DNA from: a virus
IMG/VR virus record: IMGVR_UViG_3300038825_001399
Coordinates: 933-25,313 of that record
DNA length: 24,381 nucleotides
Direction: 5' to 3' (one strand)
The position numbers and the translations under genes are program-made. The notes under the pieces are model-generated. The model was not told the origin of the DNA and made no database searches. It saw only the letters and a program-made list of their open reading frames with translations. Shown piece after piece: positions 1,495 to 14,406 of the stretch. Positions within the stretch are counted from its first letter, which is position 1. Each line of letters starts with the position of its first letter.

Positions 1495-2108
1495 TGAAAT
1501 ATAAAGAATGGTACACGCCAGGATATGGCACAGAAAAGGTCGGCCCGTTTCTCGTTGGTTTGATGCAAATGGCCCGACCACAAAAGGTATTAGAGATTGG
1601 GTTTGGTTACACCACGCCTTTTCTTATGGAAGGTTTGAAAAATAATTTTGAATTGCATTGGGATGGTAATTGCGATCCTGAATTCATGAAAACAAAATAC
1701 GATCCACGATTGGTCGTGATTGATGATCAGAGTTTAGAAACAGATGAGACTAGAGCAGACAATAGGCGAAAGTTGATTACTGACAATGCAACAAACACGG
1801 TTGACTTCATTGAAGGCAACTTTATGAATCCAGATATTATGTCTCAAGTGAAAGACACCTATTCTGAATTTGATATGTGTTGGTTTGATTGCGGCGGCCC
1901 AATCGAATTGCAATTCTTTCTTGATAATTATTTTGATATAGTCAAAGAGTATTTTGTCGTTCACTTTACTTTCTTCAAAGGTAAAGAAAACAAGAATGGT
2001 GAAACTATATCAAAGTTTCTAGAAACCAATTCACATATACAGCGATTAGATATAATTGAACCACATAAGTATCGACAGGGCAGTATTACTATATTGAGAA
2101 GAACTTGA
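1494..2108 (+). CDS. Class I SAM-dependent methyltransferase-like protein
   Basis: The product is 204 residues from ATG 1494, which overlaps the preceding stop. A TTG at 1464 would extend it by ten residues but would run deep into the membrane-protein gene. Motif I of Rossmann-fold methyltransferases is visible as VLEIGFGYT (residues 32-40), after an amphipathic helix. A later FDMCWFDCGG (126-135) occupies the position of the motif IV strand. The C-terminal beta-rich part ends in GSITILRR, as in small-molecule or O-methyltransferases. The substrate is not deducible; DNA methylation is unlikely because no DPPY or NPPY motif is present. Within the cassette it lies two genes upstream of an oxygenase-like protein. 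Confidence 0.68.
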   Translation: MKYKEWYTPGYGTEKVGPFLVGLMQMARPQKVLEIGFGYTTPFLMEGLKNNFELHWDGNCDPEFMKTKYDPRLVVIDDQSLETDETRADNRRKLITDNATNTVDFIEGNFMNPDIMSQVKDTYSEFDMCWFDCGGPIELQFFLDNYFDIVKEYFVVHFTFFKGKENKNGETISKFLETNSHIQRLDIIEPHKYRQGSITILRRT

Positions 2109-2110
2109 TT

Positions 2111-2323
2111 ATGAATTTTTCGCTAGAGTATTGCCTTAGTCTAGAAGAAAAAATAGAAACCCTAGAGAAGAGATGTGATATGCAACAAGAAATTATAGAT
2201 GATGTTAATTTCTTGTTGAGATATTATATGAATAATGTTGAAAGGAAAATGAAAGATTATGAGCAGTTTGTCAAATCTTGCGAAGACATTGGAGAGAAAG
2301 AACAAGCCGTCATCGATGTTTGA
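2111..2323 (+). CDS. Small coiled-coil protein (70 aa)
   Basis: ATG 2111 follows the methyltransferase stop at 2108 by two bases. A TTG at 2105 would overlap it. The product is highly charged and predicted to be helical: LSLEEKIETLEKRCDMQQEI (10-29) shows leucine/isoleucine heptad spacing typical of a coiled coil, and a second helix follows (MNNVERKMKDYEQFVKSCED). No enzymatic motif is present. Its last codons overlap the start region of the oxygenase-like gene in another frame. Function unknown; it may be an adaptor or a small structural protein. Confidence 0.62.
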   Translation: MNFSLEYCLSLEEKIETLEKRCDMQQEIIDDVNFLLRYYMNNVERKMKDYEQFVKSCEDIGEKEQAVIDV

Positions 2324-2954
2324 GAGAACACCGCTCTCAAAAAATTTTATAGAAAAGTTTCCTGTTATCAGTGTGGACTTGATGCCTTTGGCTTCAAAAG
2401 AAATTCCTGATCAGGACTTAACACTTAATGAGAATCTTGAAAGACAGATTCGCGAATACGGTGATACCCAACACAAGAAAACCAATGTCAAAGCACATAT
2501 GACTGATTGGTTCATGCATGATAACTCTAAAGGTTTTCAGTGGGTTTGCAATAGAGCAATTGATATTGCAACAGAGAACAATCCACACCAATTAGATATG
2601 ATTGCTTATGATTGTTGGGGTGCCATATATAAAGATGGTGATTATACAATCATGCATAATCATTGGCCGCATCTTTGGAGCTTTGTTTACTATGTGAACT
2701 GCCCTGAAGGTTCAGCACCATTGAACTTTGACAAGGCTGAGAAACCTTTGCGAGTTATGCCAAAGACAGGTATGATGGTTATGTTTCCTGGCTGGGTTAA
2801 TCATTCGGTTCCCGCACATATTGGTGATGATAGAATTGTCATCGCTGGTAATCTCACAATAAATCCTTTCTCACACATCCAGACACTAGAGAATCGTGGA
2901 TTAGGCCAATGGCGTTCTGTCTACGGTAACAGGGGCAACGTTAACAGGTTGTAG
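2316..2954 (+). CDS. 2OG-Fe(II) oxygenase-like protein
   Basis: The fold signature of small phage 2OG-Fe(II) oxygenases is visible. There is a HNHWPH segment (His at residues 114, 116 and 119 from ATG 2316), then SFVYYVN, a GMMVMFPGW turn, a distal NHSV histidine (163) and Arg173 in DRIVIAGN, which would bind 2-oxoglutarate. The proximal ligand is an HxH rather than the usual HxD, as in some members of the TIGR02466-like group, so activity needs testing. ATG 2316 gives 212 aa and an eight-base overlap with the previous gene. ATG 2259 would add 19 residues and overlap by 65 bases. The substrate is unknown. It closes the accessory cassette, directly before a strong late promoter. Confidence 0.7.
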   Translation: MFERTPLSKNFIEKFPVISVDLMPLASKEIPDQDLTLNENLERQIREYGDTQHKKTNVKAHMTDWFMHDNSKGFQWVCNRAIDIATENNPHQLDMIAYDCWGAIYKDGDYTIMHNHWPHLWSFVYYVNCPEGSAPLNFDKAEKPLRVMPKTGMMVMFPGWVNHSVPAHIGDDRIVIAGNLTINPFSHIQTLENRGLGQWRSVYGNRGNVNRL

Positions 2955-2960
2955 TTCACT

Positions 2961-2968
2961 TATAAATA
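2961..2968 (+). promoter_or_regulatory. T4-type late promoter (TATAAATA) for the hub genes
   Basis: An exact TATAAATA octamer, followed by C, lies in the 40-base gap between the oxygenase-like gene and the gp5-like gene, 34 bases upstream of GTG 2995. T4-like phages use this octamer as the -10 element of late promoters, recognised by gp55 with the gp33 co-activator and sliding clamp. No -35 element is expected. It should drive the hub/spike unit. Confidence 0.75.
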
Positions 2969-2994
2969 CTTCGATAATAGGAGTGTTTGTAATT

Positions 2995-4113
2995 GTGAAA
3001 CTTCAAGATGTTTCAAACTTTGCTGGACTTGATGGTTTTTGCTGGTTTGTTGGCCAAGTAGAAGCTCGTGTAATAACACACGATGCTGGAACAAGAACTA
3101 TAACACAAACTACATATGATGAAGATGGTGAACCAAATGGAACTGAGCAAGTCCAAGTTTCCGGCGTAACAACAATTCCCGATCCTTTACGATTGGGTAG
3201 AGTCAAGGTTCGCTGTATAGGTTATCATACTCAAGACAGAGATCAGTTGCCCACTGAGGATTTACCGTGGGCGACTGTGCTGCATCCAATAACATCCCCT
3301 GGCATTAGCGGTGTCGGAACAAATCCATTTCTAATAGAAGGAACCACAGTGTTTGGTTTCTTTCTTGATGCACATGATAAACAGCATCCTGTTATTCTAG
3401 GTTGTTTTGCAGGACGTGATGCACCAGGCGCATCATCTGATTATCGTGTATCATCAAGAACTGGTGCAACAGGACAGACACTTGCAGATGCAGAACCATA
3501 CGAACCGACAGGCGAAGTAGAGGATGATGTAGAAGATGTTGTTACTTGTGCAGAAAATGGTGTGTTTGGCCCATCCACCATAGATAATCGCGGCAGAACA
3601 ATATACTCAAATTATATAGAAGGCACAGCAAATTCTAACATCAGAGGACTTCTTAAAGAGTACGGTGGCCCAGATGTCGTCAGGGAAGTTGGAAATCTAC
3701 CCGATAGTCAAATTCTATGGTGTGCCGCTTGGGCATCAGCCGCACTCAATCGTTGTGGATTTAAAAGTCCAAACACAATGGGATCTCAAGTATTCGGAAC
3801 TAGAGCATCTCAGTATGGTGATGTGATAGCAACGGGTAAAGACTTTTCTGTAGATAAACTTAAAAAAGGAGATGTAATAGTTTATAAGTGGCCAGCGGGT
3901 AGTGGTTCTACAGGTCATGTTGGATTTTATACTGGTGAATCAAAACCATTCACAGATATTAATAATAAGCCAGCGGTGCGGATTGGTGTTTTGGGTGGAA
4001 ATCAAAGCAACGCATTATCTTCAAAACTAATGTCTACTAAACATATTGCATATGTTGTTAGACCGAGAAGGACAAGTGCTTCACTAACGGCCTCTGCGGC
4101 TAGAGAGATTTAA
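2995..4113 (+). CDS. 5: gp5-like baseplate hub protein: OB-fold plus NlpC/P60-CHAP-like peptidase
   Basis: This is a baseplate hub protein with a cell-wall-cutting domain, acting in the tail tip at infection. Residues from about 62 to 140 carry the gp5 OB-fold signature, DPLRLGRVKVRCIG then LPWA and a late PVILGCFAG. After an acidic linker, residues 230-357 match a Cys/His peptidase of the TIGR02594/NlpC-P60/CHAP type, with WCAAW (Cys243), KKGDVIVY, GHVGFY (His308) and LGGNQSN (Asn336). T4 gp5 has a lysozyme here instead. GTG 2995 was chosen because AGGAG at 2979-2983 precedes it and the product then begins MKLQD. GTG 2983 lies inside that ribosome site. The T4 spike beta-helix is absent and is encoded separately at 5633. 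Confidence 0.88.
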   Translation: MKLQDVSNFAGLDGFCWFVGQVEARVITHDAGTRTITQTTYDEDGEPNGTEQVQVSGVTTIPDPLRLGRVKVRCIGYHTQDRDQLPTEDLPWATVLHPITSPGISGVGTNPFLIEGTTVFGFFLDAHDKQHPVILGCFAGRDAPGASSDYRVSSRTGATGQTLADAEPYEPTGEVEDDVEDVVTCAENGVFGPSTIDNRGRTIYSNYIEGTANSNIRGLLKEYGGPDVVREVGNLPDSQILWCAAWASAALNRCGFKSPNTMGSQVFGTRASQYGDVIATGKDFSVDKLKKGDVIVYKWPAGSGSTGHVGFYTGESKPFTDINNKPAVRIGVLGGNQSNALSSKLMSTKHIAYVVRPRRTSASLTASAAREI

Positions 4114-4114
4114 A

Positions 4115-5620
4115 ATGATTGCAGATCCTAAATTACCAGGCAAAGTATTGGCCGCAGTTGAAGGAATTCAATTTGATGAATTTGGCGAAACTTTAATAAA
4201 AACAGCAGAGTCCGTTAGAGATGTCATTCCTGACTTAATCGATAATGAGGTTTTGAGTAGTTTACAAAGTGCTGCAAAAGGTCTTGAAGGTTTATCTATA
4301 CCAACAAGTCTTGCAGATATGCCCGACATCGCAAAAGAACTTTCTGGTGAGATCAATTTAACAAAACAAAAACTTGATGATGTGATCAGTCAGTCACTTG
4401 GTGGTCTAACAACAAGTGCGGCTACTCTTGCTCCATTGATGAAGAATAAATCTGTTGAAGTGCTCGGGCAACTTCGCAAAGTTATTCCACAGATACCTGA
4501 GCTTCCTAACATAAATTTGCAAGGCCAACTTGGTGATTTGCTTTCCAAGAAACTCGGTGGATTAAATGTGGCATCGCAATTGTCGTCTATAAAGGATACA
4601 TTTGGTGAGGCATTAACAAACAAAGGCATAGACTTAGATAATCTAGTTGATACTTTGACATTCGCTGCAGACCCTAATGTGCTAACACAATTGGGTGATA
4701 TGGATGATTTGATTGATAATATGAAATCAAAGATAGAGAATCTCGGCAATCCGTTAGGAGAACTTACTAAGTCGTTTGAGATATTTCAAAATATTGGTGG
4801 GTCACTAACTGATGATGTTGCTGAACAAATAAAGGAAACAATGGACTCACTTGATAGAACAGAAATTATTAATACCCTTCCAGAAGAAATTCAAATTCCA
4901 TCAATAAACAAGCAGGCGTTGAAAAGTTTGAAGAATAACCTTACCTCTCAAGTTGGCCAACTAGAAGGACTTAAAAATAAACTGAAAGGTTTAGTTGGTA
5001 AAGGTAGTGGCGACATATCTGATATAATCTCTAAGGTTGTTCCTAATCTTGAAAAACTTCCCTCTGGTGAAATTGTAGAGAAAGCAAAAAAGTCTCTTTT
5101 GGCTGCTGTTGACTCTGTACAAGAACAAGCAACTGAATTGAATCTAAATGCTAACATAACATTGATAACCAAGAAACTAGAAAACAATATTGCAGCATTT
5201 ACTGCTGGAGAGGGTAAAGGAAAAATTGTTTTTGATGATATTGCTAAGAAAGTTAAACTAGAACTTTCAGATGTAAAAGAAGAAATTGCGAAACTTGATA
5301 TACCCAAAGATTTGGATAAAGTGATGAGTCAAGTTACAGAGCAAATGAAATCTGTTGATGGAGAAATCCTAAAATTCTCTCAGGCATTATCTGAGAACGC
5401 TCCTACTCTAAGAAAAAATGTTCAGGAGCAAGTAAACAATCTTCCTATAGAACTCAAAGGTCTGTTTTCTGCTGGACAGGAAACTCCTTTAGACTTGACT
5501 GCTCTTTCTAGTAAAATAGAGGATGCAGGTAAACTTTTAGAGGGGGCTGCTGATAAACTTAAACCACAACTAAAAAAGGGTGCTTCACGACTGAGAGAAG
5601 CGGTTGAAGAGATCATATAA
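4115..5620 (+). CDS. Long helical protein between hub and spike genes (501 aa)
   Basis: ATG 4115 follows the hub gene stop by one base, and the next gene is the spike, so the product is probably a hub or spike-associated virion protein. The sequence is almost wholly amphipathic helix. Leu, Ile and Val recur at helical spacing with many Lys, Glu, Asp and Ser, and Pro/Gly breaks divide it into segments (IPEL, IPSI, LPEE, LPSG). There are no Cys residues and no transmembrane or signal segment. The style recalls apolipoprotein-like or tape-measure-like helix bundles. I cannot name a T4 counterpart: gp27 is beta-rich and does not fit. A tube-lumen component, spike chaperone or hub plug are all possible. 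Confidence 0.72.
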   Translation: MIADPKLPGKVLAAVEGIQFDEFGETLIKTAESVRDVIPDLIDNEVLSSLQSAAKGLEGLSIPTSLADMPDIAKELSGEINLTKQKLDDVISQSLGGLTTSAATLAPLMKNKSVEVLGQLRKVIPQIPELPNINLQGQLGDLLSKKLGGLNVASQLSSIKDTFGEALTNKGIDLDNLVDTLTFAADPNVLTQLGDMDDLIDNMKSKIENLGNPLGELTKSFEIFQNIGGSLTDDVAEQIKETMDSLDRTEIINTLPEEIQIPSINKQALKSLKNNLTSQVGQLEGLKNKLKGLVGKGSGDISDIISKVVPNLEKLPSGEIVEKAKKSLLAAVDSVQEQATELNLNANITLITKKLENNIAAFTAGEGKGKIVFDDIAKKVKLELSDVKEEIAKLDIPKDLDKVMSQVTEQMKSVDGEILKFSQALSENAPTLRKNVQEQVNNLPIELKGLFSAGQETPLDLTALSSKIEDAGKLLEGAADKLKPQLKKGASRLREAVEEII

Positions 5621-5632
5621 AAGAGCAATACT

Positions 5633-6691
5633 ATGACGATACAAACAACAATACGCGGACCAAACCCTATACAAGACTCAGGCAAAGGTGGACATTCGGA
5701 CCAAGGCACACCTGAAGGTTCAAAGGGCACTTTACCTGATGGAACTCAAGGTCAGGAACTTGAACCTAACACTAAAAGAGCCAGGTCATTAGAACACAGA
5801 AAAGAAAATGGAAACGGTATACCTGTAGCGACTAAACCAAACTTATCATCTGTATCAGATGATCCAAAGGTTTCCGGTACACCAGAAGATCCTGAACAAT
5901 TGCGAATGAGTGAGCCACATTATGCTGGTGTTGATCCCAATGATGAAACTTATGTGAGTGCTCAGTATCCTTATGTTCACGTTGAAAAAAGTGAAGCCGG
6001 TCACCTTAGAGTTGTGGATGATACTCTTGGTGGCGAACGATTGCTCACTCAACACAAGACAGGAACACTTGATGAGTATTTACCAAACGGTGACAAAAGA
6101 GTAAGGATTATAGGCGATGGATATGAAATCATTGCTGGACAAAAAAATATATTCATTGGAGCAGGAGGTAGAGCTAGTAGAGAAGATGCTCTGAACCTTA
6201 CTGTTAACGGTAATGTTCGTCAACTAGTAAAGGGTGATTACATTCTAGAAGTTGAAGGCGATTACCACGAAAAAGTTCATGGTAGTAGATATACAAAGAT
6301 TGGTGCCAAAGGTGGCGGTGGTAATTATGAGGTAGAAATACGAGGCAACTATTCTGCACAGATTAACGAAGACTATAAATTACACGTTACAGAAGACTAT
6401 GACTTGGTGGTTGATAAAAATAGAACAAGTATTATAAACGGTAAGGATACACTTGGCGTTACAGAAGGACTTTCACTTATATCAACTACGGGAAACATCT
6501 TGTTGTCGGCTATGAAGAATGTTGCTATCAACACAAACGATAGTGCTGAAGGAACCATTTCCTTGAAGGCAGCGAGTAATATTGATACTCGCTCCACTAC
6601 AACGACAGATATAACCGCTGGAACTATACTTAATCTTCATTCTGGTGATCAAACGCCAAGCCCAACCAATAGTATAAATTTAAATCCGTGA
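5633..6691 (+). CDS. gp5 C-terminal beta-helix spike protein
   Basis: The product is 352 residues and should form the trimeric membrane-piercing spike under the baseplate. Residues 1-100 are a polar, Gly/Pro/Asp-rich, presumably disordered arm. Residues 112-150 (YPYVHVEKSEAGHLRVVDD onward) match the region that precedes the needle in gp5/VgrG proteins. From about 150 to 345 short beta-strand repeats dominate (for example LEVEGDYHEKVHGSRYTKIG), with alternating hydrophobic and polar residues and periodic Gly/Asn turns as in the gp5 triple beta-helix. In T4 this domain is the C-terminus of gp5, joined to OB and lysozyme domains; here it is a separate gene, 12 bases after the helical protein. 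No metal-binding PAAR-type tip is apparent. Confidence 0.85.
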   Translation: MTIQTTIRGPNPIQDSGKGGHSDQGTPEGSKGTLPDGTQGQELEPNTKRARSLEHRKENGNGIPVATKPNLSSVSDDPKVSGTPEDPEQLRMSEPHYAGVDPNDETYVSAQYPYVHVEKSEAGHLRVVDDTLGGERLLTQHKTGTLDEYLPNGDKRVRIIGDGYEIIAGQKNIFIGAGGRASREDALNLTVNGNVRQLVKGDYILEVEGDYHEKVHGSRYTKIGAKGGGGNYEVEIRGNYSAQINEDYKLHVTEDYDLVVDKNRTSIINGKDTLGVTEGLSLISTTGNILLSAMKNVAINTNDSAEGTISLKAASNIDTRSTTTTDITAGTILNLHSGDQTPSPTNSINLNP

Positions 6692-6737: not shown

Positions 6738-7205
6738 GTGTCCACAGTAGAAAGAACAGGTTCATTTAAAGAACTCACAGCACTTAGAGATGCAGAAAGA
6801 AATAATGAATCAACTCTAAATGTTAAGACATATAGAGACTTAGACCTGTTCTTTACACGGCGGTCAAGAGATAGCGATGTTAATGTTCTTACAAACATCA
6901 CAGCAGTCAAGAGGTCAGTTCGAAATTTAGTTTTAACAAATTTCTATGAGAAGCCTTTTCATCCTGAGATTGGTTCTGGTGTCAGAGACTTGTTGTTTGA
7001 AATTGTCAGTCCATTAACTGCAATTGCATTGGCACAATCTGTGGAGGATGTCATCAACAACTATGAGCCTAGAGCATTGTTGTTGGGTGTTGACGTTATC
7101 GATAACATAGATGCCAACGCATATGATATAACAGTAACCTTTGAAGTGATAAATGCTCCAGGCGAAATAGTTCAATTAGATGTGCTATTGGAGGCATTAA
7201 GGTAA
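6738..7205 (+). CDS. 25: Baseplate wedge protein gp25
   Basis: This is a gp25-like sheath-initiator/wedge protein. It joins gp6 and the sheath at the core of the baseplate. The family hallmark EPR is at residues 110-112, within SVEDVINNYEPRALLLGVDV. It is preceded by the usual ITAVKRSVRNLVLTNFYEKP and GSGVRDLLFEIV segments. At 155 aa it is slightly longer than T4 gp25 (132 aa), mainly through a charged N-terminal arm of about 30 residues. GTG 6738 is chosen for its CGGAG ribosome site and its 29-base distance from the late promoter. Its TAA overlaps the ATG of gene 6 (TAATG at 7203-7207), so the two wedge partners are translationally coupled. Confidence 0.95.
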   Translation: MSTVERTGSFKELTALRDAERNNESTLNVKTYRDLDLFFTRRSRDSDVNVLTNITAVKRSVRNLVLTNFYEKPFHPEIGSGVRDLLFEIVSPLTAIALAQSVEDVINNYEPRALLLGVDVIDNIDANAYDITVTFEVINAPGEIVQLDVLLEALR

Positions 7206-9115
7206 TGGCAAACAACCAAAAATTAGATATTTCTGAACTTGATTTTGACGCAATAAAAAGTAATCTCAAAACTTTTTTGAAGAATCAAGACCAATTTCTT
7301 GATTATGATTTTGAAGGTTCCGGTATGAGTGCATTGTTAGATGTGCTCGCATACAATACTCACTATTTAAGTTTCCATGCTAATATGGTTGCCAATGAAA
7401 TGTTCATTGATAGTGCTGCTTTGCGTTCAAGTGTGGTGTCTCATGCCAAGACTTTAGGATATGAAGTCAGATCAGTTCGTTCTCCAAAAGCTAGAGTGAA
7501 TGTTTTTCTTAATGATCGGTCACTCCCCACAGCAAATATGAACGCTGGTCAAGTGTTTACTACTAAAATTGATAATGTCAATTATCAGTTTGTCACTGTA
7601 TCTGATTTTACTGCTTCTCAAGTTGGTTCAGGTCTTCTGTTTTCAGATGTGCCAATTTATGAGGGCACGTATGTAACAACAAGATACACAGTTGATAGCA
7701 CTAATGTTAATCAAAAATTTATATTGACAAGCAATTTAGCAGATACATCTACTCTTACTGTTAAGGTGCAAAATTCCTCAACTGATAGCACTACCGAAGC
7801 ATATACAAAAGCAACAGACATCACACAGTTGACAGGAACGAGTGCTGTTTACTATCTGCAAGAAATAGACGATGGTAGGTTTGAAGTATACTTTGGTGAT
7901 GGTGTTGTAAGTAAGGCTTTGTCTGATGGTAACATAGTTATTCTTCAATACGTTGTCACTAACATTGGTGAAGCAAACGGTGCTTTTTCTTTTACTGCCT
8001 CTGGTGCAATCAACACGGTTACCGATATTGATACGATTACTATTGAAGATGCAAATGGTGGATTGCCAGCAGAAAGTATTCAGTCTATCAAACTCTCAGC
8101 TCCTCTTGACTATGCCGCACAGGGACGTTGTGTTACTACAGATGATTATAAGGTCTTTGTGAAAAAACTTTATGCTAATGCTGAAAATGTTCAAGTGTTT
8201 GGTGGAGAAAATGGTTCTTTCGATCCTAGTCTTGGTGTCATAAGCACACCAGAGTATGGTAGAGTGTTCATTTCTGTAAGTAATACTCAAGGAACAAATC
8301 TTAGTCTTGAAGAGAAAACTACTTTGATACAAGCTTTAGAACCGTTTAAGGTTGCATCGATTACACCTGTTATTGTGGATCCAGACTACACAGATATCTT
8401 TCTCACAGTGAACTTTAAGTTTGATTCTAATCTAACGACTAAGACAAAAGACACTTTAGAAACTGAGGTTACATCGACACTCACAACATACAATACAACA
8501 GAACTTTCAAAATTTGATGCCGTGATACGAAACTCCTCTTTGTTAAGAGCGATTGATGATACAGATGCATCCATAACTGGTAGCTCTGCTGTCCCAAGAC
8601 TTGCGAAATATTTTTCACCTACTTTAAGCAGTGCCAGAGACTATAATTTGTTTTTTAACAATGCATTGTTTAATCCTCATGCTGGTCATAATCAAGAACT
8701 TGGTGGTATTTTAACTTCTTCGGGATTCAATATCTTTGGTAGAACTGAAGAACACTTTTTTGATGATGATGGTAATGGTAACGTGAGAGCTTACTACGTT
8801 GCTCTAGGTGGTGATCGAGTTTATACAAATCCAACAATCGGCACCGTGAACTATGTCACTGGTCATGTTAAGATTAGTCAAATCAACATAACAGGTATCT
8901 CAGATATTGATGGTGAGGCCTCCACTCTTATTAGGATTGTAGTTGTACCAAACTCTCGTGACATCGTTTCACTTAGAAATCAAATCCTAGAACTTGATTT
9001 AATTAACACTACTGTAACTGGAGTAATTGATAGTATTGCTGTGGGAGATGACAGCGGTGGATCATCTTATGTTGCTCCCTCTGCATCTGTAAGTCCATCA
9101 GGTACAGGTTATTAA
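7205..9115 (+). CDS. 6: Baseplate wedge protein gp6
   Basis: This is a gp6-like wedge protein. In T4 it dimerises to form the continuous inner ring of the baseplate and relates to the J protein of P2-like phages. The N-terminus is diagnostic: LDFDAIKSNLKTFLKNQDQF (11-30), then GSGMSALLDVLAYNTHYLSF (39-58) and MFIDSAALRSSVVSHAKTLG. A beta-rich middle contains YFGDGVVSKALSDGN and LDYAAQGRCVTTDDY. The C-terminus is a Ser/Gly/Pro-rich tail (about the last 20 residues). At 636 aa it is close to T4 gp6 (660 aa). It is coupled to gene 25 by start/stop overlap, and the next gene begins two bases after its stop. Confidence 0.95.
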   Translation: MANNQKLDISELDFDAIKSNLKTFLKNQDQFLDYDFEGSGMSALLDVLAYNTHYLSFHANMVANEMFIDSAALRSSVVSHAKTLGYEVRSVRSPKARVNVFLNDRSLPTANMNAGQVFTTKIDNVNYQFVTVSDFTASQVGSGLLFSDVPIYEGTYVTTRYTVDSTNVNQKFILTSNLADTSTLTVKVQNSSTDSTTEAYTKATDITQLTGTSAVYYLQEIDDGRFEVYFGDGVVSKALSDGNIVILQYVVTNIGEANGAFSFTASGAINTVTDIDTITIEDANGGLPAESIQSIKLSAPLDYAAQGRCVTTDDYKVFVKKLYANAENVQVFGGENGSFDPSLGVISTPEYGRVFISVSNTQGTNLSLEEKTTLIQALEPFKVASITPVIVDPDYTDIFLTVNFKFDSNLTTKTKDTLETEVTSTLTTYNTTELSKFDAVIRNSSLLRAIDDTDASITGSSAVPRLAKYFSPTLSSARDYNLFFNNALFNPHAGHNQELGGILTSSGFNIFGRTEEHFFDDDGNGNVRAYYVALGGDRVYTNPTIGTVNYVTGHVKISQINITGISDIDGEASTLIRIVVVPNSRDIVSLRNQILELDLINTTVTGVIDSIAVGDDSGGSSYVAPSASVSPSGTGY

Positions 9116-9117
9116 AA

Positions 9118-12100
9118 ATGGGTGATTCAGAACTAACAACCAAGGTGTCAAATCTGATTGATGGTCAGGTTCCTGATTATATTCAGGCTGACCATCCTAT
9201 ATTTGTTGATTTTCTGAGACAGTATTATAAGTTTCTAGAATCTGCACAAATAACCATAACAGGAACAGTAGATCAGGTTTTGCTTGAAACCGCATCAACT
9301 AGTTTTCTTACGTTAGATGGTACTGATAGATTTAGTTCAAACGATTCAAGTAAAATTGTTTTTGAGGACAGCACAGGTAAGTTTGAGGTTGGCGAAACAA
9401 TCACTGGTGGGACAAGTAAAGCAACTGCTACAATACTAGTAGACGACAATGAAACTCTTTACATATCTGCCAACCAAAAATTCAAAGAAGGCGAAACAAT
9501 CACTGGTGGCACTAGCGGTGCAACTAGCACTTTGGTCAAGTATCGTGCCAATCCTGTACAGAACATTCAACAACTTTTTGAATATGCAGATCCAGATAAC
9601 ACGGTAGATCATTTTCTAAATGCCTTTAGAGATTCCTTCATGGAATCCATACCTACATCTCTTGCAAGTGGTGTATCTAAACGAAACCTGATTAAACAAA
9701 TCAGAGATTTGTATGCGGCAAAAGGCACGTCTGAAGGTCATAAACTCTTTTTTAGAATTCTGTTAGGACAGGAAGCTGAGATTTATTATCCTGAAAAGGA
9801 TATGTTGAGATTAAGTGATGGTAATTGGTCCAAACCTATTATCATACGATGTACTTCTGACACATCAGGTGCTGTTCCTGCTGACATGGTTGGTAAAAAC
9901 ATTACCGGCGCGTCATCTGGAACAAAGGCTCAAATTATTTCCGAATTTACTTTTCAGCAGGGTAGAGAGAGCGTAACTGAATTTTCTCTTCGCGAAGACA
10001 CCATTGAAGGTAGCGGTTTTACCATATCAGAAACGTTTACAGGTATATCTGAAACAGCAGACATCAACATGCAGTTCACTATTCAAGGAATAGTGACTAA
10101 CATTTCAGTAACAGATAGTGGATTACTTTATAGTAAAGGTGATAGTCTAACAGTAGACACATCAGTTGGTAACGGTAATGTTTCTGCTGAGGTAAGCGAA
10201 ATAACTTCAGGTGGGGTTAGTGATGTTTTTGTAGATAGTTCCGGCACTGGATACAAAGTTGGTGATGCGATTAAGTTTACAGCTGTAAGTGCTGATGCTG
10301 ACTCTGTTGATGCTCGTGCCTTTGTATCTGTTGTTGGTGGTAGGTTATCCACTGAAGACAGCACAGATAGTACGGCAGAAAATATTCTTTTAGAAAATGG
10401 TACAGATCAACAACTTGTTCATTCATCGATTCTATTGGATGGTACTGAACTAGTCGATGCTGCATCAGAACCTTATGCTGTTCTTGGCACTGATAGAAGA
10501 TTTAGTGATAGTGCATTATATTATTATCCTTTGTACGTTGATAAAAGAAAGGCACAAGTAAGTGCAACTAAAACAGGTGGAGCTATCTCTTCTGTAAATG
10601 TTGTCAATGCTGGTTCTGGTTATACAAACGGAACCTATTATGCAGCGGTGTCTGGTGATGGTAATAATCAAGGGACGGCTACAGGTGCTGTTATAAGAAT
10701 TGTCGTTAGAGAAAATAAGATCGCCTCTTTTGGCACTACATTTGCAACGGAAACTACAATTCATAGGTCAGGTAGTGGTTACACTTTTGGTAATATAAGA
10801 CTTACAAGTGGATTCACTTTTTCTGACCCAGAGTTGACAACTACCTCTGATATGGGTGGAAGTGATGGTTTGATATTAATCACACCAAACGTTGCGGTTG
10901 TGAAGGCCAATGCATATATCTTTGACCAATATCCCGGCATAACTTTTTGGATGCCAAGTGATAACCAGAATAATGCCAAGTCAACTTTTGATAGTAACAT
11001 TTATAGTTTGTTTGAAACTCGCAGGCCTGCTCTTAATGACGGTTCACAACTACGTCAAGAAGATGGAACAACCGGCACCGGATTAGGTGATAAACTTTTA
11101 TCTGAAGAATCTTTATTGTTGACGGATGCCTATGGTACATCGTCAGATGGTATTGTTTTAGAAACAGAAACGTTTGGTGAATCTGAACAGACTGAACTCA
11201 ATAGAGTGTTTTTAGCTAATTCTGGTAGTGGTTATACCTCACTACCGAATCTAAGTATCATTACAGAAAATGGTGCAAACGCAAACCTTATTGCAAACAC
11301 AACTGATATTGGTAAGGTGACCGAAATTAAGGTTACTGATGAAGGGTTCAAATATTCAGTTGCCCCAGATGTTTCATTAAATACAAATCTAATTCTCAAA
11401 GATGTTGTTGGAACATTTCTAACAGAAGAAGAACTTACTACTCATGATGGTTCAGTAGTTTCATATGATTCGGATACGCAAAAACTCGTAATAGATGCTC
11501 CACCAAATGATCGTATCAATTTAGAACAATCTAGTACATATAATGACGGTGTTCAATTAGAGGATTTTGATATCGTTGAGCCTGGTCGTCCAGATCACGG
11601 CCCTGTTGCTACAATCTATAAAGTTATTGATGAAGTTGGTTCTGGGTTTTTGCTCAATAACTCTGCTGGAGTAGAGTCAAATATTCTTTTAGAAAATGAG
11701 ACAGGTCAAATCTTGTTAGATGCTCATGATGCCGATGTTTTCCAAATTAGTTTAGAGACTGCTACTGATTCAAGTGCCTACTCAAACTTGGGTCAATCGG
11801 TAAAGCATGTCAATACTCCAGATGGTAGACTTCTTGGGGAAAACCTAGAAACATTTATCACAGAAAACACACCAAATGTAACTAGTGTATCATCTGGTAA
11901 AGCTTTATATGATCAGGTTATCTTTGACGGAGATCAATCTGATGGTTTAGGTAATGTTCTTCTTGAAGATGGTGGCCGGATACTAAACGAAAACTCTGGC
12001 AACAATCTTCTCTTGGATGGCACAGATGAATCTGGTTCTGATGCTGGTTCTGAATTATTAATGGAAAATGAAACTCTTGGTGATCAACTAGCCTTAGATG

Positions 12101-14406
12101 GTACAGACAATAGTGCGACAGATGCTGGTGATGAGGTTCTTCTGGAACCTGGCTCGAATGTTTTCAATCTTGTTGGAGATACTATCACATCGTCTAATGG
12201 TGCAACAGCAAAAATTCTCTCTCAAGGCACAGCAACAGCAGAGGCATCGTTCGGAACCACTTCAACTCGGGTAGGTCGATACATTAATAATGATAGTCAT
12301 ATCAGTGATAAAGATATCCGTGTTCAAGACTCTTATTTTTATCAACAGTTTTCTTATGAGGTAAGAGTCAACGCAGCCATATCTGAATATATGAATGAGT
12401 TAAAGGCATCTGTGCATCCAGCTGGTTTTGCTCCATTTGGTAAGATTGCAATCTCAACACAACTTTCAGCAGGCATTGGTGTCACTGCAGCTGGTGTTGC
12501 TGATGCTACAGTTGATGACACATTTACACCAGAACTTGCCTCACTGTTCAGGTTGATATTTGGTCCAACCATAAAAGTTAATCACGGCGTTCGTGAGAAT
12601 GTTCTTTCAACAGACGGTGAGAGCAGTTTGTTTGATTCTCTTTTGACAGAGAATGGTGTCGCTATTGGCGATAAACTTTTAGAAGAAACAGATGGCGATA
12701 ATCTACAGTTTGAAAGTGGGCTTGATATTGCGATAGAAAACTCTCCCAAATCTGGTGACGGTAGTGTTCTTTTGGAAACAGGCACTGGTGGTGGTTTGTT
12801 ACTTATGGAAACAGCACTTGGTGAGAATGGCATTCTTGATAGGTCGGTTTCAAAGGTAACAAAACTTAATGTTACGCCACAACTTGTTAAAACAAGAAGG
12901 TCTTATGGTGCGCCTTTACTTGCTAACACTTTGCCTGGGTCACTTTTCTTTGATAGACCTGGCGTTCAATTAGAAGCTGGTAATAGAGATAAAGCTCCTA
13001 TTATTATGCAAGATAATTTGGTGTTGGATGGTTTTGATGAATACCAAACTGGTGCTGGAGATAGAATAGTCTACGAGGACTTTTTGGATAACTCAACTTC
13101 CTCTACTGTCAAAATTGATGAAATAGGTTCATTATCAATATCAGATATTGTTAGTCTTAACACTGTGGGTTATATTGAAGGTGTGGGTCTAGAATCTGTA
13201 GGTGACAACATTTTACTTGATGGCACAGATAGTGATGCCACAGATGCAGGTAGTAGTTTGTTGTTGGATGGGACAAATGAAAAATCACTGGATGCAGGTT
13301 CAAGTCTTATTCTAAATGGTGTTGGGTTTAGAAACTTTACTGAGGAGCCTGAGGGTAGTATTGTATTTGAACAAAGTGCAGCATCTGATGAATTAGTTCT
13401 AGAAGATTTCATCGTGTTTGAGTTGAACGCAGATGAAGTAAGAAACGAGGTAATAATATCAGAGAACGGTCAAAACATATTGTTAGAAACCACTGGTAGG
13501 TTTAGAGATACTGAAGTTGGCCGCATAGCAGTTGAGTCTGGTTCTGAGGATAATGCTTTCCTTAAAAACGGTTCTGATGTAAACATTCTTAAACTGGAAA
13601 CAGAGACAGATGCAAATGGTTATCTGATAGGTGAGGATGATACCATCAGTGCTGTAGATCGTAGTATCAATGTTGTTATAGAAAGCGGTCTTCTTGAAAA
13701 TGAAAAGATAATGACTGAGGGTAGTTTGATTGAATTTGAAGGCGACACTAATGTTGGCACTATTCCAGAAAGAAATTTCGGTAACAGAAACGTTGTGTCT
13801 TTCACAAGAGAAGCCAGAGTTCATACAGAGTTAGTTGTGTCCAGAATAGCATTGCAGGATGAACGTGACACTAATGTGTTCATAGCAATGGATGGTACAG
13901 ATAGTTCATCAACAGATGCTGGTGATAATATTATACTTAACGGCACATCTGCTGTTCTGGATATTGAGGACAATATTCTTTTGAACGGTACTGACGCCGC
14001 ACAAAGTGATGCAGGTTCAGCAGTTATTTTGGATGCAAGTGCTTCTGGTACTGATGTTGGAGAAAATCTGTTATTAGATAGCACTGGTGGCCGAGACGAT
14101 GGTGATCGTATTCAACTTATGAGCACAATTTATAATCTGGTGCCAGGAAATGAGGGTGGTTTTGTTTTGTTGAATGGCACAGATGGTTCATCAACGAATG
14201 CTGGTGATGAATTGTTGTTAGAGTCTGGAACGATTGAATTCTTAGAACAAAACAGTATAAATGTGTCAGTTGGTGCCACAGCAGAAGCTGGTGGTCTTGC
14301 TTTACCAATAAGTGAAATTTCACTCGTTGGTGCAGCGCAGGCAAGTGCGTTTGATTCTACTCTTGGAACATTTGACTCAACAAATATAACCTTTGATGCT
14401 GCATAA
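9118..14406 (+). CDS. Large baseplate wedge/virion protein in the gp7 position (1762 aa)
   Basis: Its place between 6 and 8 and its N-terminal signatures indicate the gp7-type wedge protein of marine T4-like phages. These are VPDYIQADHPIFVDFLRQYY (18-37), then LIKQIRDLYAAKGTSEGHKL and EIYYPEKDMLRLSDGNW (about 190-240). A segment around residues 1077-1110 (FSYEVRVNAAISEYMNELKA, VHPAGFAPFG) is also typical. The rest is built from repeats: two GETITGGTS units in the first 140 residues, a GSGYTNGTYYAAV module near 487-590 shared with gp8, and many LDGTD..TDAG..LLLE units, densest after residue 960. T4 gp7 is 1032 aa, so repeats explain most of the extra length. It probably crosses the wedge and contacts fibres. 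Direct similarity to T4 gp7 is not visible by eye. Confidence 0.82.
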   Translation: MGDSELTTKVSNLIDGQVPDYIQADHPIFVDFLRQYYKFLESAQITITGTVDQVLLETASTSFLTLDGTDRFSSNDSSKIVFEDSTGKFEVGETITGGTSKATATILVDDNETLYISANQKFKEGETITGGTSGATSTLVKYRANPVQNIQQLFEYADPDNTVDHFLNAFRDSFMESIPTSLASGVSKRNLIKQIRDLYAAKGTSEGHKLFFRILLGQEAEIYYPEKDMLRLSDGNWSKPIIIRCTSDTSGAVPADMVGKNITGASSGTKAQIISEFTFQQGRESVTEFSLREDTIEGSGFTISETFTGISETADINMQFTIQGIVTNISVTDSGLLYSKGDSLTVDTSVGNGNVSAEVSEITSGGVSDVFVDSSGTGYKVGDAIKFTAVSADADSVDARAFVSVVGGRLSTEDSTDSTAENILLENGTDQQLVHSSILLDGTELVDAASEPYAVLGTDRRFSDSALYYYPLYVDKRKAQVSATKTGGAISSVNVVNAGSGYTNGTYYAAVSGDGNNQGTATGAVIRIVVRENKIASFGTTFATETTIHRSGSGYTFGNIRLTSGFTFSDPELTTTSDMGGSDGLILITPNVAVVKANAYIFDQYPGITFWMPSDNQNNAKSTFDSNIYSLFETRRPALNDGSQLRQEDGTTGTGLGDKLLSEESLLLTDAYGTSSDGIVLETETFGESEQTELNRVFLANSGSGYTSLPNLSIITENGANANLIANTTDIGKVTEIKVTDEGFKYSVAPDVSLNTNLILKDVVGTFLTEEELTTHDGSVVSYDSDTQKLVIDAPPNDRINLEQSSTYNDGVQLEDFDIVEPGRPDHGPVATIYKVIDEVGSGFLLNNSAGVESNILLENETGQILLDAHDADVFQISLETATDSSAYSNLGQSVKHVNTPDGRLLGENLETFITENTPNVTSVSSGKALYDQVIFDGDQSDGLGNVLLEDGGRILNENSGNNLLLDGTDESGSDAGSELLMENETLGDQLALDGTDNSATDAGDEVLLEPGSNVFNLVGDTITSSNGATAKILSQGTATAEASFGTTSTRVGRYINNDSHISDKDIRVQDSYFYQQFSYEVRVNAAISEYMNELKASVHPAGFAPFGKIAISTQLSAGIGVTAAGVADATVDDTFTPELASLFRLIFGPTIKVNHGVRENVLSTDGESSLFDSLLTENGVAIGDKLLEETDGDNLQFESGLDIAIENSPKSGDGSVLLETGTGGGLLLMETALGENGILDRSVSKVTKLNVTPQLVKTRRSYGAPLLANTLPGSLFFDRPGVQLEAGNRDKAPIIMQDNLVLDGFDEYQTGAGDRIVYEDFLDNSTSSTVKIDEIGSLSISDIVSLNTVGYIEGVGLESVGDNILLDGTDSDATDAGSSLLLDGTNEKSLDAGSSLILNGVGFRNFTEEPEGSIVFEQSAASDELVLEDFIVFELNADEVRNEVIISENGQNILLETTGRFRDTEVGRIAVESGSEDNAFLKNGSDVNILKLETETDANGYLIGEDDTISAVDRSINVVIESGLLENEKIMTEGSLIEFEGDTNVGTIPERNFGNRNVVSFTREARVHTELVVSRIALQDERDTNVFIAMDGTDSSSTDAGDNIILNGTSAVLDIEDNILLNGTDAAQSDAGSAVILDASASGTDVGENLLLDSTGGRDDGDRIQLMSTIYNLVPGNEGGFVLLNGTDGSSTNAGDELLLESGTIEFLEQNSINVSVGATAEAGGLALPISEISLVGAAQASAFDSTLGTFDSTNITFDAA
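9391..9509 (+). repeat. Coding direct repeat, 20 nt exact, 99-nt period (GETITGG units)
   Basis: The 20-base stretch at 9391-9410 recurs exactly at 9490-9509, both in frame, each encoding GETITGG. The period is 99 nt, or 33 codons. The following residues diverge (TSKATATILV versus TSGATSTLV). This is a tandem duplication of a short beta-structured unit in the gp7-position protein; related units occur in the gp8 and DUF4815 genes. Confidence 0.85.
12007..14230 (+). repeat. LDGTD..TDAG..LLLE protein repeat region
   Basis: Within the gp7-position gene, imperfect units of about 20 residues follow the pattern (I/L)LLDGTDxSxTDAGxxLLLE. Clear copies lie near 12007, 12088, 13018, 13207 (two adjacent), 13882 (four adjacent or degenerate) and 14164. 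Weaker ones lie upstream near 9310 and 10384. Units alternate acidic-polar turns with three- to five-residue hydrophobic strands, suggesting a stacked beta structure or short linkers. Asp-rich turns could bind calcium, but that is speculation. A two-unit copy appears in the fibre-like gene at the end of the window. Confidence 0.8.

Follow-up and report, generated by a model that had tools for sequence, protein, structure and literature searches.

A predicted papain-like hydrolase between the OB domain and a separately encoded spike in the tail hub genes of a marine T4-like phage

Proteolysis splits T4 gp5 at Ser351/Ala352, within the segment linking the lysozyme to the beta-helix, and the lysozyme is about 10% active while gp5C is bound (PMC3004832). 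In CBA120 gp5 the usual lysozyme is absent and a TIGR02594/CHAP domain is present at amino acids 150-282 (Kutter et al. 2011, PMC3184105), sitting between regions that match both flanks of T4 gp5 (PMC3184105), and so a lysozyme-to-CHAP swap in gp5 has been known since 2011. When gp5 proteins of Kuttervirus, Agtrevirus, CAU_YEP3 and Atu_ph04 were scanned, CHAP scored above its cut-off in all of them and TIGR02594 in the three tested. Acinetobacter phage Konradin gp5 has a T4-type lysozyme, and that of Ochrobactrum phage OC has M15_3 plus a phage tail lysozyme. Cyanophage gp5 was rejected as a direct model, since Pfam detected no enzyme, and a regular expression no spike motif, in that of P-SSM2, S-BM3, S-RIM2 and P-RSM6. 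A literature search turned up no paper describing a marine phage with a split gp5, which is weak evidence given a partial coverage of the literature.

Across 47 gp5-locus proteins scanned, CHAP was found in 6, M15_3 in 5 and a VgrG3-like C-terminal domain in 2, most having no known enzyme. Where M15 or VgrG3-like domains turned up in IMG/VR proteins, they sit at the C-terminus, beyond the beta-helix whenever a beta-helix was located, and not between OB and spike. Two of these marine gp5 proteins (L050:4001-6178 and L058:4001-6166) end in a C-terminal domain like that of the type VI secretion protein VgrG3 (E 1e-36 and 3e-26, respectively), a kind of cargo also borne by type VI secretion spikes.

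The locus described here lies in a stretch of 24,381 nucleotides (the window) from the IMG/VR virus record IMGVR_UViG_3300038825_001399, and its sequence places the phage as a relative of the pelagiphages and of Melnitz. Very probably it encodes a marine T4-like tail hub in which a papain-like hydrolase, set between the OB domain and a separately encoded spike, would cut the wall at entry. The features are collected in Table 1.

Table 1. Features of the hub region, in window coordinates
Feature	Position	Strand	Basis or remark
TATAAATA, T4-late-promoter-like element before gp5	2961..2968	+	kept before gp5 in L002-L008
gp5-like hub protein	2995..4113	+	372 aa: OB domain, linker and papain-like hydrolase (predicted); 376 aa from GTG 2983
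gp5 OB domain core	3181..3429	+	residues 67-149 (2983 numbering); T4 gp5 residues 18-109 align
NlpC/P60-CHAP-like hydrolase domain	3565..4089	+	AlphaFold model, Foldseek and VIA-align matches, profile E 2.4e-10
Predicted catalytic Cys243 (247 in 2983 numbering)	3721..3723	+	invariant 72/72; helix start in model
Predicted catalytic His308 (312)	3916..3918	+	invariant 72/72; on strand in model
Probable third catalytic residue Asn336 (340)	4000..4002	+	invariant 72/72
501-aa ORF between hub and spike	4115..5620	+	no confident Pfam match
Separate gp5C-like spike (beta-helix)	5633..6691	+	T4 gp5 383-525 at 1.1e-11; 9f4a 343-541 at 3.8e-20
Baseplate wedge gp25	6738..7205	+	GPW_gp25 6.7e-9; phrog_261 1.8e-40
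Baseplate wedge gp6	7205..9115	+	phrog_219 5e-167; Melnitz, Mosig and HTVC008M nearest cultured, 46-49% identity

The gp5 protein and its hydrolase domain

The gp5 reading frame is open up to the stop at 4113. The GTG at 2995, taken as the start in a first-pass annotation made from the letters alone, has AGGAG upstream at 2979-2983 and is kept in all relatives, and residues are numbered from it here; in the form starting at GTG 2983 all numbers rise by four. The N-terminus matches Pfam Gp5_OB above its cut-off (E 2e-13, 51.3 bits against 25) and the T4 gp5 chain in the PDB (E 7e-15), the OB core has invariant columns in alignments A1 and A3, and gp5 homologues are present at loci L002-L010. 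At one of these (L010:3995-4951) a frame change towards the end of the gene shortens gp5 relative to L008 and L009, loci otherwise almost the same, and is either an assembly error or a real variant.

The WCAAW, GDVIVY, GHVGFY and GGNQSN motifs, from which the first-pass annotation had read a Cys/His hydrolase of NlpC/P60-CHAP type behind a gp5-type OB fold, are all found where it placed them, and the Gp5_OB match, the profile searches and the predicted structure bear this reading out. The family matches it had anticipated exist at scores below the curated thresholds: the C-terminal half of gp5 gives E 1.2e-6 with TIGR02594 (28.8 bits, cut-off 70.55) and E 4.8e-4 with CHAP (PF05257; 21.0 bits, cut-off 26), and E 3.4e-3 with NlpC/P60, also under its cut-off. 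Among the relatives L006 and L008 score 39.2 and 33.5 bits with TIGR02594, and L006 passes the CHAP cut-off with 27.5 bits. A profile made from 65 TIGR02594-like domains on contigs of IMG/VR and GTDB, from which the window's own family was excluded, matches the hydrolase at E 2.4e-10 (the best of 20,000 shuffles reached 0.42) and the L006 and L008 domains at E 8.8e-14 and 4.6e-13. Because its scores fall under the curated TIGR02594 and CHAP cut-offs, the domain is on sequence grounds called a divergent homologue of these families.

TIGR02594 loci for the deep hydrolase alignment were reached via Ackermannviridae and Atu_ph04; it replaced an early one (A2, 10 loci) that held 7 near relatives only, and a further alignment (A5, 8 rows) was dropped for the pattern scan, its sequences being too diverse. 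Across the resulting 72 sequences Cys243, His308 and Asn336 are the sole invariant columns, so that the Cys and His proposed in the first-pass annotation proved conserved throughout. All three residues align with, and are invariant among, the 65 TIGR02594-like domains, and they are retained in two hydrolase alleles of the window's lineage that are just 36-38% identical.

An AlphaFold model of the hydrolase domain made with the 72-sequence alignment (pLDDT 90.1, pTM 0.87) has the papain-like pattern, with Cys53 at the start of helix 52-63, His118 in strand 117-130 and Asn146 following strand 136-144. A model of full-length gp5 made from 8 sequences had a pLDDT of 40 and was not used, and so what is said of the fold concerns the hydrolase domain alone. 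Nearly all of the best VIA-align matches are NlpC/P60 or CHAP enzymes, with CHAP endolysins and NlpC/P60 endopeptidases at the top: LysIME-EF1 has Z 9.8 (124 residues superposed at rmsd 3.3), MepS Z 9.2 (100 residues at rmsd 2.6) and CHAPK Z 8.9, Z values of 8-10 being moderate; RipD structures and glutathionylspermidine amidases are matched as well. Foldseek against the PDB puts CHAPK at the top (E 0.014, probability 0.99), no PDB match reaching E 0.001, and against BFVD it finds the hub and tail lysozyme of a Serratia phage (E 7.7e-5). The model thus resembles CHAP and NlpC/P60 enzymes and not a non-hydrolase fold, and from sequence and model together the C-terminal domain of gp5 is almost certainly enzymatic.

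Gene order and a hydrolase segment swapped between relatives

The genes run gp5, 501-aa ORF, spike, gp25, gp6, an order kept in L006 and L007 and also in L008, where the middle ORF is in two frames. The beta-helix is absent from the gp5 chain itself and the spike is encoded two genes downstream, matching phrog_430 (2.5e-31) and, under its cut-off, Gp5_trimer_C (2.5e-5). A separately encoded spike had been foreseen in the first-pass annotation, which put the hydrolase between hub and spike without mention of the 501-aa ORF that intervenes. No enzyme domain was found in homologues of this ORF, which lie (E 1e-7 to 3e-25) downstream of a fused OB and beta-helix gp5 in 21 of the 51 IMG/VR loci examined, and so the 501-aa protein is a conserved gp5 neighbour in many marine T4-like contigs. 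Neither a T4-type Phage_lysozyme, in gp5 or elsewhere, nor a PAAR tip protein was found in the 34-kb record; a PAAR protein is present in a 54-kb relative. Conserved upstream of gp5 in the relatives is a small protein with an HEMVH motif (827-1318 in the window), a possible metallopeptidase, and past gp6 lies a 1762-aa structural protein (9118-14406) with many LLDGTDxxxxDAGD-like repeats, similar motifs being seen in the ORF from 23445.

Elements of the form TATAAATA occur in the window at 2961, 6709 and 14414, all on the plus strand, a structural ORF starting shortly after each one. Three such elements are no more than chance would give, as 12 of 100 shuffles reach that number; they are probably T4-type late promoters. 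Since the element precedes gp5 and gp25 and is found before neither the 501-aa ORF nor the spike, the arrangement suggests that gp5, the 501-aa ORF and the spike share one late transcript.

The relative L007 has the window's DNA at 91-99% identity from 2101 to 3450, then falls to 47-61% over 3451-4200, is back at 78% for 4201-4350, is low once more over 4651-4950 and reaches 89-98% over gp25 and the spike past its first residues. At the protein level its OB part shares 91% of residues with the window's and 72% with that of L008, whereas its hydrolase shares 38% and 69% respectively. These opposite affinities of the two halves imply that recombination near the OB/linker junction exchanged the hydrolase as a cassette. 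The exchanged segment may extend into the 501-aa gene, because the first 50 residues of that protein diverge too, at 35% identity to the window and 33% to L008, and so are not L008-like either. The joint divergence of the hydrolase and the N-terminus of the 501-aa protein suggests a role for the latter in fitting or controlling the enzyme. We offer this tentatively, and as somewhat doubtful taken whole, as part of a scheme in which the split genes would reproduce the T4 gp5*/gp5C maturation at the level of DNA, no proteolytic processing of the hub enzyme being needed, with the hydrolase as the exchangeable cassette.

What the hydrolase may do

By analogy with T4 the OB domain would seat gp5 in the baseplate hub, and the hydrolase, with its predicted Cys243-His308-Asn336 triad, would then be positioned between hub and spike. 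On contraction of the sheath the beta-helix spike, made from its own downstream gene, would punch through the outer membrane, and the hydrolase would open a way for the tail tube through the thin Gram-negative peptidoglycan by cleaving its peptide or amide bonds. The splitting of the genes would here stand in for the T4 proteolysis of gp5 to gp5* and gp5C. Judged by sequence, gp5 likely brings into the virion an enzyme that attacks the wall at entry by cleaving peptide or amide bonds, and a switch from glycan to peptide or amide cleavage, as the first-pass annotation had it, is what the family leads one to expect; we infer likewise that gp5 is present in the virion and active there, and that the host is Gram-negative.

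The same fold could be put to other uses. Non-catalytic NlpC/P60 proteins such as RipD exist, and a catalytically silent peptidoglycan binder that merely guides the tail to the wall would suit both the RipD structures among the fold matches and the scores under the curated enzyme cut-offs; it would not suit a domain in which no columns but Cys, His and Asn stay invariant and in which these persist in such divergent alleles, and we regard it as unlikely. A papain-like fold also serves substrates other than peptidoglycan, as the matches to glutathionylspermidine amidases illustrate, and the domain might be a cysteine peptidase or thioesterase acting on a protein of the host surface or on another virion protein. 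Most of the fold and profile matches are however peptidoglycan hydrolases, and the position equals that of the T4 lysozyme and of the CBA120 CHAP domain, which makes such a substrate very unlikely.

The first-pass annotation had gone further and suggested that the hydrolase stands in place of the T4 lysozyme and that this could reflect a different host wall, on the ground that its enzyme class differs from that of T4. By position the replacement holds, but nothing indicates a T4-type lysozyme at any earlier stage of this lineage: in gp5 of HTVC008M and Mosig, the cultured phages closest to it, no enzyme was found, and so no lysozyme that could have been replaced. CBA120 infects E. coli O157:H7 and so shares the host species of T4, and the class of enzyme is therefore a poor guide to the wall of the host; Ackermannviridae of Salmonella and Klebsiella show the same arrangement, and relatives range over no enzyme, VanY/M15-type, VgrG3-like and CHAP-like. 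Adaptation to a different wall is thus highly improbable, and a wall hydrolase used at entry is the reading carried forward.

Comparison with known tail hubs

What emerges is a T4-type hub whose enzyme slot is exchangeable within one marine phage lineage, the OB domain and the spike staying nearly constant, and whose OB and enzyme half and spike half can be separate genes. Together the exchangeable slot and the split genes allow tests of how a hub enzyme stays quiet until injection.

T4 gp5 has the same order of OB, enzyme and spike and likewise ends as two chains (gp5* and gp5C), but its enzyme is a glycan-cleaving lysozyme where the window has a predicted Cys/His hydrolase, and its two chains come about through proteolysis whereas the window has two genes with a third between them. 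Given the T4 cut at Ser351/Ala352, and that the window's spike aligns from about residues 343-383, the gp5 and spike genes of the window correspond roughly to gp5* and gp5C.

In the Ackermannviridae (CBA120, Kuttervirus, Agtrevirus) gp5 also has an OB domain followed by TIGR02594/CHAP in the lysozyme position; there, however, hydrolase and beta-helix are in one protein and the match is far above cut-off (1e-38), compared with a separate spike and a divergent hydrolase (1e-6) in the window. The 291-aa gp5 of Agrobacterium phage Atu_ph04, being OB plus TIGR02594/CHAP with no beta-helix in the chain, is like the window's in layout; it differs in a canonical TIGR02594 score and in that a simple motif search found no spike gene within 3.6 kb downstream.

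Closer by baseplate is Methylophilales phage Melnitz, with gp6 49% identical and an OB and enzyme gene apart from the spike gene, although its enzyme is VanY-like (a weak match, 1.1e-4) and the two genes are adjacent. The C-terminus of the Melnitz spike (L037:4656-6659) looks M15-like by eye (HNTGNAVDLQF), possibly giving two wall enzymes in one hub. HTVC008M and Mosig also have a related baseplate (gp6 47-49%), but in these the OB domain is fused straight to the beta-helix. In a hub of an otherwise known kind, what varies in the window is the separate spike, the divergent hydrolase and the exchange of the cassette.
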